From contig JAUVOB010000013.1 in assembly GCA_030599405.1 (NCBI GenBank), forward strand, positions 1 through 11,388: a stretch of DNA of 11,388 bases. Direction: 5' to 3'. Made by a program: the position numbers and the translations under genes. Below are positions 6,554 to 11,018 of this stretch, piece after piece. Position 1 is the first letter of the stretch. Every line of letters begins with the position of its first letter. The stretch comes from Chloroflexota bacterium (GTDB taxonomy: Bacteria > Chloroflexota > Anaerolineae > Promineifilales > Promineifilaceae). Below the pieces are notes generated by a model that saw nothing but the letters and a program-made list of their open reading frames with translations, made no database searches and was not told the DNA's origin.

Positions 6554-6575
6554 TGTCATGGATTTTACCATGACA
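6554..6575. promoter_or_regulatory. Inverted repeat enclosing a -10-like TAAAAT, upstream of the ATL gene
   Basis: Perfect 8-bp arms, TGTCATGG (6554-6561) and CCATGACA (6568-6575), enclose six bases that read TAAAAT on the minus strand, a 5/6 match to the -10 consensus in the direction of the ATL gene. A dimeric regulator binding the arms would cover that -10 box. No good -35 hexamer is found at 16-18 bp, so the promoter assignment is tentative. There is no T tract, so this is not an intrinsic terminator. Confidence 0.4.
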
Positions 6576-6646
6576 ATCGTCACTTCCTTTAGCACCTGTA
6601 CCTGTTAATATATCCACGGAAGTTAAAGAAATCAAACCAGCGACAG

Positions 6647-6675
6647 TTAAGAATAACTGCGCGGTGGTTTATAAG
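6647..6675 (+). promoter_or_regulatory. Candidate promoter of the plus-strand small RNA
   Basis: TTAAGA (6647-6652, 4/6 to TTGACA) and TATAAG (6670-6675, 5/6 to TATAAT) are separated by exactly 17 bp. The predicted start, about 6682, falls 11 nt before the closing helix of the structured RNA, which is the expected geometry. Confidence 0.45.
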
Positions 6676-6681
6676 CACAAC

Positions 6682-6820
6682 TCTCCTGTCGCGCAGGGTC
6701 ACTCGTCGCCAGGCTGAACACGAGAAAATAAATTAGGCACATAGCGCAGCCTCCTCAAAACCGCTAGTAGCCTCGTGTTTAGCTTCATCGAAGCAAAATG
6801 GGTGACCCTGCCCTTTTTTT
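6682..6820 (+). ncRNA. Candidate structured small RNA of unknown family
   Basis: About 139 nt, with ends that pair and a T tract after the 3' arm. Helix P1 joins 6693-6706 to 6798-6811 (14 bp, two G-U pairs, core GCAGGGTCAC/GTGACCCTGC) and is followed by seven T at 6814-6820. Helix P2 joins 6717-6724 (AACACGAG) to 6772-6779 (CTCGTGTT). P2 can extend outward to 6711/6785, or else leave 6782-6794 free to form the hairpin GCTTC-ATC-GAAGC, giving a three-way junction. Inside P2, TAGCG (6742-6746) pairs with CGCTA (6762-6766) and exposes a 15-nt loop containing CCTCCTC. All neighbouring genes are on the other strand, so it is not a leader of any of them. It lacks the SRP RNA signature and does not resemble tmRNA or RNase P RNA; it is short for 6S RNA. 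Expression and family membership are untested. Confidence 0.55.
6798..6820 (+). terminator. Intrinsic-type terminator of the small RNA
   Basis: The 3' arm of the long-range P1 helix, GTGACCCTGC, is followed by CC and seven T residues. The hairpin is not local: its 5' arm lies about 100 nt upstream, so the folded RNA body forms the loop. Confidence 0.5.
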
Positions 6821-6828
6821 GTGATGCA

Positions 6829-6873
6829 GGAGTGGGAGGAAGAGCCCAGTTAGGTGTTCAGAGGGAGTGGGAG
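6829..6873. repeat. Direct repeat GGAGTGGGAG, two copies
   Basis: Identical 10-mers begin at 6829 and 6864, 35 bp apart, in a purine-rich stretch just beyond the small-RNA terminator. No function is evident. Confidence 0.4.
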
Positions 6874-6923
6874 TCGGCGATTATGTCAAGTTTACAGTTC
6901 ACCAAACGCGCTTCTCTATTGCC

Positions 6924-6952
6924 TGTATCCCGATGAACAGAACTCGGATACA
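6924..6952. repeat. Inverted repeat TGTATCC / GGATACA
   Basis: Perfect 7-bp arms (6924-6930 and 6946-6952) are separated by 15 bp in the gene-free region. There is no flanking T tract. Confidence 0.35.
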
Positions 6953-6973
6953 TGTGGTCATGGATTATGCTAA

Positions 6974-6990
6974 GTTCCGCTAGCGGGAAC
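6974..6990. repeat. Near-palindrome GTTCC-GCTAGCG-GGAAC
   Basis: Seventeen bases form a hairpin with one unpaired G around the palindrome GCTAGC. It directly abuts the second copy of the 13-mer GATTATGYYAAGT. No T tract follows on either strand. Confidence 0.35.
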
Positions 6991-7029
6991 GGCTGTAATC
7001 AATTCATAGAGAATTAGAATAAACAAGGT

Positions 7030-7217
7030 ATGGGCACTGTGCTTTTGAATCACGGCACCTCCGGTGAAAAGACTGCATTTGCTACAGGTTATGTCGGTCC
7101 ATACGGGACAGCTATTCGAAGGATTACGTAAAGTACCCGCCGACCAACTATCTATTAGGATTTGAGAGTGGATCAGGTGATATCACGATTATGTTAAGTA
7201 TTCTGGAAGAAGATTGA
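7030..7217 (+). pseudogene. Possible frameshifted coding remnant
   Basis: A 33-codon plus-strand frame starts at ATG 7030 and stops at 7131. A second frame is open from 7068 to the TGA at 7215-7217 and ends with a protein-like stretch, YVKYPPTNYLLGFESGSG, followed by DITIMLSILEED. The second frame has no start codon near its beginning. The two could be pieces of one gene broken by a frameshift. No family was recognised, and chance open frames of this length are common, so the call is weak. Confidence 0.22.
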
Positions 7218-7263
7218 CCTCGTAGACGATCCGATTCGTCCACTCATTGAGGATTAGTCTGAA

Positions 7264-7977
7264 TTAATCGGCGCGATACCTTTCCCCGGCTGTGACGGCG
7301 AATGCAAGGGTGTTTTCTGCTGGAGATAGAGGGCAGATCCATCGCGGATTGTAGGCACAGGAGGGATTGTAACTGAAATTGAAATCCACATTCACTTCGG
7401 CGCCGTTCACACCAAGATCTGCACCTTTGATAGTATCGTAAAGATAACGTCCCCCTCCAAAAGTTGCCTCACCATTGGTCATGTCTCGGAAGGGCAAAAA
7501 AAGCCCTCCCCCATATCCCTCAATCCAGAAAGCGCTCAATGCAGCCTCAATTTGTTTTATGATGAATCTGACACTTCCGACACGGGTCAATTGGATCCGG
7601 CCGTCAGCTCCCAAATCGATTTCGTTGGATACACCTGTCGCTTCGATCTCGAAAGTTCCGGTGACCCGCCAGTCTGGATCATATGCGTAGTACGGCAGTC
7701 CACGGAAAACAGAGCGTTGATCGAAGTCGAGGGGGGATTGGGGATGGTTCTTCAGGAGATCATTGCGAGCAGCACGCCAATCTTGCCAGGCAATCTCCAG
7801 GCTGGCGCTAGGAGCACGCCGGATGTCGGCATAGATTTCAGCCACGCATCGTCGCCAATCTACCAATGAGAGGGGATCTTTCAAATCAAATTTAAAGACT
7901 AACTTTACATAAACCAGCACACGGCCGGTATCAGCCAGGTATGCCTCAGAGGCCGCCGGGGGCGCAGCTTGCCGCAT
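7264..7977 (-). CDS. DUF1684 family protein
   Basis: The function of this family is unknown. The C-terminal half carries its signature: GGGRYLYDTIKGA (221-233 of the longest open frame), then FNFSYNPSCAYNPRWICPLSPAENTL with two cysteines, preceded by W-R-AARNDLLKNHPQSPL and FRGLPYYAYDPDWRV. The start is uncertain. The open frame extends to an ATG at 8118, but that would overlap the zinc-ribbon gene by about 170 bp and adds sequence unlike the family. I prefer ATG 7977 (237 residues), which has GGAG four bases upstream and overlaps the preceding gene by 32 nt. GTG 7920 or TTG 7866 are alternatives; the latter is nearest to where family similarity (DWRRCVAEIYADIR) begins. It is probably cotranscribed with the two genes upstream. 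Confidence 0.82.
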   Translation of the reverse strand: MRQAAPPAASEAYLADTGRVLVYVKLVFKFDLKDPLSLVDWRRCVAEIYADIRRAPSASLEIAWQDWRAARNDLLKNHPQSPLDFDQRSVFRGLPYYAYDPDWRVTGTFEIEATGVSNEIDLGADGRIQLTRVGSVRFIIKQIEAALSAFWIEGYGGGLFLPFRDMTNGEATFGGGRYLYDTIKGADLGVNGAEVNVDFNFSYNPSCAYNPRWICPLSPAENTLAFAVTAGERYRAD

Positions 7978-10679: not shown

Positions 10680-10976
10680 CTAAACCCGGACAACCGAGTC
10701 TTCGCTTCCGAAGTCGTTCGGCCAGTATTCGTCCGCTTCCCATTCATTTTCCCATTTGTCGCCGTTAAGCATGTAGCGAAAGCGATAAGATCTGCCGGCT
10801 TCTAAAGTCATGGTCGTGCTGAAACTGCCGTCTTTAAGCCGCTTCATGGGATTGGCATTCTCGTCCCACTCATTGAAATCGCCGCATAGGGCGGCCTTTT
10901 CCGCCTCTACTTCGGCAGCCAGTTTAAACGTTACTCTGCAGACACGACCAGTTTTACTGTAGCTTTTCTTTATCAT
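10680..10976 (-). CDS. Stand-alone CBM48 / isoamylase N-terminal domain protein
   Basis: The 98 residues form a single early-set immunoglobulin-like domain of the kind found at the N-terminus of glycogen-branching and debranching enzymes and in AMP-kinase beta subunits. Key positions are VTFKL (15-19), CGDFNEWD (31-38), the glycan-facing LEAGRSYRFRYMLNGDKWENE (58-78) and YWPNDFGSEDSVVRV at the end. There is no catalytic domain, so it probably binds glycogen or another alpha-glucan, or serves as a small partner of a glycogen enzyme. I chose ATG 10976, six bases after a strong AGGAGG (10983-10988), over ATG 10979 (three bases away) and ATG 10991, which would precede the site. Cys13 and Cys31 are present. 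The promoter upstream is overlapped by a palindrome. Confidence 0.88.
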   Translation of the reverse strand: MIKKSYSKTGRVCRVTFKLAAEVEAEKAALCGDFNEWDENANPMKRLKDGSFSTTMTLEAGRSYRFRYMLNGDKWENEWEADEYWPNDFGSEDSVVRV

Positions 10977-11018
10977 CATTAGCCTCCTCATTGTCGGTTA
11001 GTTATCGTGTGTCAAAAA

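Follow-up and report, generated by a model that had tools for sequence, protein, structure and literature searches.

Known small RNAs (sRNAs) that present anti-Shine-Dalgarno (anti-SD) loops on diverging stems are described as blocking ribosome binding (PMC10746234, PMC3927594). NfeR1 of alpha-rhizobia is portrayed as relying on CCUCCUCCC loops that are conserved although the stems carrying them diverge (PMC10746234), and IsrR of Staphylococcus aureus is presented as a C-rich sRNA that blocks start sites without Hfq (PMC9410917). For Chloroflexota, one report lists Chloroflexi-1 RNA (RF01698), a candidate structured RNA, for Chloroflexus aggregans only (PMC2864571). Our literature search returned no regulatory small RNA of such kind in this phylum. 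Here we analyse a stretch of 11,388 bases (the window), which is one whole contig (G000:C273) of a 70%-complete draft genome, and focus on an element that is best read as a free-standing structured RNA with a predicted transcript on the + strand, a reading supported by folding and by comparison with two further genomes of the genus, G001 and G002.

Comparison with described RNAs

Like 6S RNA (RF00013), which is a long, mostly closed rod with interruptions, the element forms a long and mostly closed rod. The invariant apical loop and the lack of matches outside the genus are features of the element that set it against 6S RNA; RF00013 gave no match at the locus, and each genome has its own 6S RNA elsewhere (G000:C226, G001:C66, G002:C231). 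A closer likeness is found in the alpha-r14 or cuckoo sRNAs (NfeR1, Sinorhizobium meliloti), which share an unpaired, ultraconserved anti-SD motif, CCUCCUCCC there and CCUCCUC here (PMC10746234, PMC3927594). As in that group, a helix (P2) diverges with compensation in our element and the loop motif is invariant. The architectures differ: the alpha-r14 RNAs have three (or four) motif hairpins, with the identical CCUCCUCCC unpaired in three of them, whereas the element is one long bent hairpin with a single CCUCCUC loop and a 5′ tail carrying UCUCCUG. The alpha-r14 RNAs furthermore belong to Alphaproteobacteria, and sequence comparison with the element was confined to Rfam scans. With IsrR the element shares C-rich single-stranded regions in loops and near the 5′ end beside a stem (PMC9410917), whereas IsrR differs in having three stem-loops plus a separate terminator, in coming from a different phylum and in having tested targets. 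Chloroflexi-1 RNA, likewise a candidate structured RNA of Chloroflexota (PMC2864571), is not among the Rfam matches of the element.

A preliminary description of the locus had recognised no known family, and the Rfam check bears this out. At the element, Rfam 15 gave two matches to eukaryotic RNA families, both at chance level (9.6 and 13.3 bits against cut-offs of 48 and 39), and scans of the G001 and G002 copies (L004, L005) gave no match. On the basis of the Rfam scans and the literature search, the RNA family appears to be undescribed.

Fold, strand and conservation of the element

We are confident that window 6682-6820 holds a genuine + strand RNA gene. Folding of this segment yielded a minimum free energy (MFE) of -50.7 kcal/mol as compared to -33.6 +/- 3.8 for shuffled sequences (z -4.5), with none of 200 shuffles as good, and the G001 copy folded nearly as well (-50.6 kcal/mol, z -3.9, 1/200 shuffles as good). 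On the opposite strand, z fell to -2.0 in the window and -0.7 in G001. By raw MFE the element ranks 13th among the 1126 stretches of 139 nt on both strands of the window; it stands out relative to its own composition and not by raw MFE, the shuffle z having been computed for the element alone. The helices described beforehand, here P1, P2 with its extension and P3 with a 15-nt loop, together with the T7 tract, are all present (Table 1). An alternative hairpin at 6782-6794, also proposed, does exist in the window, but by eye it is not kept in G001.

Table 1. Positions of the element, its parts and the associated genes in the window
Feature	Position	Strand	Basis or remark
Structured small RNA gene (approximate transcript, ~135 nt; ends predicted by way of the T7 tract and conserved block)	6682..6820	+	MFE z; covariance-model matches in G001 and G002
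Possible -10 element TATAAG	6670..6675	+	Letters differ in both G001 and G002
24-nt 5′ block	6681..6704	+	No difference in G001; G002 shares the first 22 nt
UCUCCUG, SD-complementary	6682-6688	+	Unpaired part of the 5′ block
P1 closing helix (14 bp with G-U)	6693-6706/6798-6811	+	Folding, structural alignment
P1 3′ arm	6798..6811	+	With the T tract a possible terminator stem; terminator-like match at chance level
P2 helix	6717-6724/6772-6779, extendable to 6711-6724/6772-6785	+	Changes with compensation in G001
34-nt apical block	6734..6767	+	No difference in G001; G002 shares 24 nt as far as a scaffold gap
P3 stem	6742-6746/6762-6766	+	Folding, structural alignment
15-nt apical loop CAGCCUCCUCAAAAC	6747..6761	+	CCUCCUC at 6750-6756, anti-SD-like seed
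T7 tract (T4 in G001)	6814..6820	+	
Alkyltransferase-like (atl) gene, PF01035	6123..6494	-	Divergent neighbour of the RNA in three genus genomes
Top-ranked candidate target site, TGAGGAGGCT at the CBM48 (glycogen-binding) gene, where it forms the ribosome binding site	10981..10990	-	10 nt complementary to the apical loop; prediction

The signals expected to flank an sRNA gene are less distinct than its fold. The proposed promoter TTAAGA-N17-TATAAG (6647-6675) is literally there, but a consensus scan gave no promoter on the + strand, and neither hexamer is letter-identical in G001 or G002. The only terminator-like site that the scan gave (6800-6813 plus T7) is at chance level, with 0.8 expected, and for the G001 copy the scan lists neither promoter nor terminator, T4 standing in place of T7. 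Of the properties of an sRNA, a T tract, structure and invariant unpaired segments are present, promoter and terminator being at chance level by the consensus scan. An inverted repeat, CAGTTA-AGAA-TAACTG (6644-6659), overlaps the supposed -35 element and is not kept in G001.

The P1-P2-P3 structure is kept in two species, that of the window and G001. So are two blocks, which do not vary at all and take in the apical loop as well as the unpaired 5′ end. In G002 a scaffold gap interrupts the copy beyond the loop, leaving G001 as the one complete homologue. In a structure-led alignment of window and G001, which was fitted to the window's structure, 23 of 32 pairs are invariant, five show one-sided and three double changes, and one is broken. 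The refutation named in advance, arm changes lacking compensation, was thus put to this single complete homologue, where pairing is kept in eight of nine varying pairs. Pairing cells reached 98.4% for the structure and at most 43.8% when partners were slid by one to three columns; the shuffle control for covariation, weak with two sequences, matched the double changes in 65/500 and the percentage paired in 31/500 cases. P3 is invariant in all five pairs, P1 varies little or not at all, and P2 drifts in a compensated manner. All five one-sided changes interconvert Watson-Crick and G-U pairs on the + strand and would therefore be A-C mismatches on the - strand. Folding and this G-U asymmetry both favour the + strand; the recognised genes all lie on the - strand, as had been stated for a free-standing RNA opposite to the genes, and no downstream + strand gene is recognised in the window. 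Across four neighbouring genes, only 121 of 420 four-fold sites (29%, near chance) are identical between window and G001, indicating saturation. An RNA frozen in two blocks amid such saturated silent sites is, as judged from the sequences, a clean case of strong selection.

Distribution and genomic setting

Several searches confine the element to one genus. By DNA search it was found in 3 of 98 relatives, which are all three genomes of the genus, and covariance model R1, run with stricter filters, matched 3 of 52 family genomes, again the genus members, the other 49 giving no match. R1 was built on alignment A1, in which P2 of G001 pairs out of register, and this model underlies the family count, the G001 and G002 matches and the scores of pattern stretches given below. 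A model made from the window only retrieved the G001 copy at E 6.6e-24; the structure-led alignment made with it gave R3. Among 396 class genomes, R3 matched one, from which the window itself comes; this sample apparently did not include G001 and G002. Each of the three draft genus genomes contains one match. Pattern searches allowing up to three mismatches gave hits in 4 of 52 family genomes (G000, G001, G024, G028), of which those in G024 and G028 were rejected, their surroundings being unlike the RNA and without an R1 match. An 18-nt pattern found 10 stretches in genome contigs, one being G001 (L045). We discarded the nine others, eight scoring at most 16.7 bits with R1 and L048 obtaining no score; at L043, a 15.9-bit R1 match spans the model and omits most of P1 and P2. 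In viral contigs a 17-nt pattern found one stretch (8.5 bits), and the phage and plasmid collections held no match to the element. With single matches per genome and none in these collections, a mobile repeat, phage or plasmid origin was rejected. Taken together, the element very probably represents a genuine family of structured RNAs that belongs to a single genus of Chloroflexota.

The recognised genes of the window, all on the - strand, encode a DnaE-like protein (5′ part, running off the window; a label that we assigned by reading alone), aldehyde ferredoxin oxidoreductase, a glycosyltransferase, Atl, DUF1684, DUF302, a 6-phosphogluconolactonase-type protein, glucokinase and CBM48. The atl product has PWQR where alkyltransferases carry PCHR. 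The CBM48 protein has a homologue with 84% identity in Candidatus Promineifilaceae bacterium. In G001 and G002 the element is flanked by mfs on one side and by atl on the other, and it diverges from atl. The window locus gave no mfs match, and the RNA is nonetheless kept with its structure; about 440 bases without a recognised gene (6820-7264) occupy the place where G001 and G002 have mfs, flanked there by DUF1684 and the RNA. In G001, mfs is broken into two open frames (L004 684-1940, as 684-1421 and 1440-1940), and the gene may therefore be decaying in the genus. Among 27 atl loci of other genera, an mfs match was present in four, at 26, 30, 90 and 128 nt from atl (distance between matches). 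Compared to these, G001 (589 nt) and G002 (415 nt) have larger distances, which point to a spacer that was probably enlarged in the genus. The mfs-atl spacers of two other genera have unrelated inverted repeats of their own (L019 1372-1500, with a stem of ~21 bp, and, as seen by eye, L029 1848-1939), as if this spacer accepted insertions. Upstream of atl, the window holds a further inverted repeat, GTCATGG-N6-CCATGAC (6555-6574), partly kept in G001 and G002. This repeat and the conserved block TTAATATATC at 6605-6614 may jointly form an atl promoter with operator, the promoter-like match itself being at chance level.

Proposed function, rival explanations and candidate targets

Both invariant blocks expose SD-complementary letters, which suggests a trans-acting sRNA that masks ribosome binding sites. 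The RNA is most likely a regulatory sRNA that acts without Hfq, a protein found in 0 of 51 family genomes. In the proposed mechanism, the RNA would be transcribed independently from the + strand, its gene lying upstream of atl and pointing away from it. Its exposed 5′ UCUCCUG and apical CCUCCUC would pair with SD regions of target mRNAs and so block ribosome binding without Hfq, and P1 with the U tract would end transcription and protect the RNA. For this account as a whole, a genus-only, trans-acting and Hfq-free sRNA with its base-pairing mechanism included, our confidence falls slightly short of an even chance. A bolder version, which we put forward as speculative and consider unlikely, is that the RNA copies the ribosomal anti-SD tail in a rigid apical loop, carries another SD-complementary seed at the 5′ end and would thereby found a new Hfq-free regulatory class, arisen within one genus in the enlarged mfs-atl spacer and controlling genes with strong SD sequences such as cbm48.

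Protein binding is the main rival, because the invariant block exceeds seed length and P3 never varies. Here a protein would read the 34-nt apical block, and the RNA would serve as a sponge or scaffold without pairing to mRNA. The extent of that block over the P3 stem and its flanks, with all five P3 pairs unchanged, fits such a role, and so does the finding that start sites show no significant excess of seed complements. However, none of eight neighbouring proteins scanned matches a known RNA-binding Pfam family, and the SD-complementarity of both exposed blocks would then be coincidence. TROVE/Ro (PF05731), moreover, gave matches in 10 of 51 family genomes but in none of the 3 from the genus (drafts, in which absence is not absolute), making a Y-RNA role unlikely. 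On balance we rate protein binding as rather unlikely. The location between mfs and atl in G001 and G002, running in the opposite direction, would also suit a cis-acting antisense RNA or a bidirectional terminator insulating atl from upstream mfs, the more so as mfs and atl matches are 26-128 nt apart in four loci of other genera. Such a role does not call for an invariant 34-nt apical block, and the RNA and its structure are kept at the window locus, where mfs has no match; we consider it improbable.

It is also conceivable that the - strand is the functional one, serving as the atl 5′ leader, in which case a small leader peptide would start from GAGGAGG-N7-AUG within the conserved block. The invariant block indeed reads GAGGAGG followed by AUGUGCCU, a good ribosome binding site towards atl. 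This idea is very improbable given the weak folding of that strand and the five A-C mismatches that the one-sided changes would entail on it, and atl may have a separate promoter in the conserved block that lies between it and the element. The peptide itself fails, because the frame after the AUG runs for 31 codons in the window but stops after 7 in G001; a small peptide on the + strand was likewise rejected, its frame, as read by eye, not being kept. The long inverted arms, finally, could mark a DNA-level element, whether a mobile inverted repeat, a recombination site or a protein-bound palindrome, and the larger mfs-atl gap in G001 and G002 than in the four other loci, two of which have other inverted repeats, would accord with it. 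It is the least probable of the explanations weighed here: each of the three draft genomes has a single match, the phage and plasmid collections have none, and G-U, which takes part in the one-sided pair changes, would not be retained in a DNA palindrome.

Returning to the sRNA that would mask ribosome binding sites, its targets can be tested directly by way of two short candidate seeds. A crude gene finder, applied to 570,378 bases of G000 (121 contigs including the window, about a quarter of the genome), yielded 403 start regions. When the loop was compared with these, cbm48 ranked first by duplex energy (-19.7 kcal/mol), and homologues, mostly of 98 aa, support placing its start at 10976. 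The cbm48 rank is weak evidence, because a loop that resembles the anti-SD will by its nature pair with every strong SD; loop duplex energies correlate with those of the 16S tail at 0.63. Among 18 neighbour start sites, cbm48 obtained p 0.01, and atl 0.04 in the window, 0.81 in G001 and 0.96 in G002. In an analysis of 252 start regions, the loop core had a mean duplex energy below that of each of 20 shuffled loops; a second loop site from this set, L220 (-18.5), was lost under the changed gene choice of the 403-region set. The 5′ segment has nine-letter matches at two sites, one before a gene in L183 that we take to be Jag-like and one before an unnamed gene in L217, and its best site by energy alone is L224 (-22.6, six letters).

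Seeds of at least eight letters were not significantly enriched at start sites, neither for the loop (4/403 start sites vs 3/403 intragenic; reached by 24/200 shuffled seeds) nor for the 5′ segment (4/403 vs 0/403; reached by 14/200). Exact 10-nt complements, counted in the three genomes with the RNA itself left out, fell into long open frames in 20/24, 23/26 and 23/25 cases. Compared to backward-pattern controls they were more frequent (26 vs 18, 29 vs 9 and 28 vs 16), the excess lying inside coding sequence; one was at a gene start (L066, G002), and by eye no target common to the three genomes was seen among these seeds. Because seed enrichment is not significant, complements lie mostly in long open frames, no shared target was seen by eye and an SD-complementary loop pairs with strong SDs anyway, we treat the pairing mechanism as a hypothesis. 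The TROVE/Ro genomes of the family are G004, G009, G016, G023, G027, G035, G040, G044, G047 and G049, and these may hold Y RNAs of Chloroflexota. The Shine-Dalgarno sequence of the CBM48 gene is unusually strong (TGAGGAGGCT, window 10976-10991, - strand).
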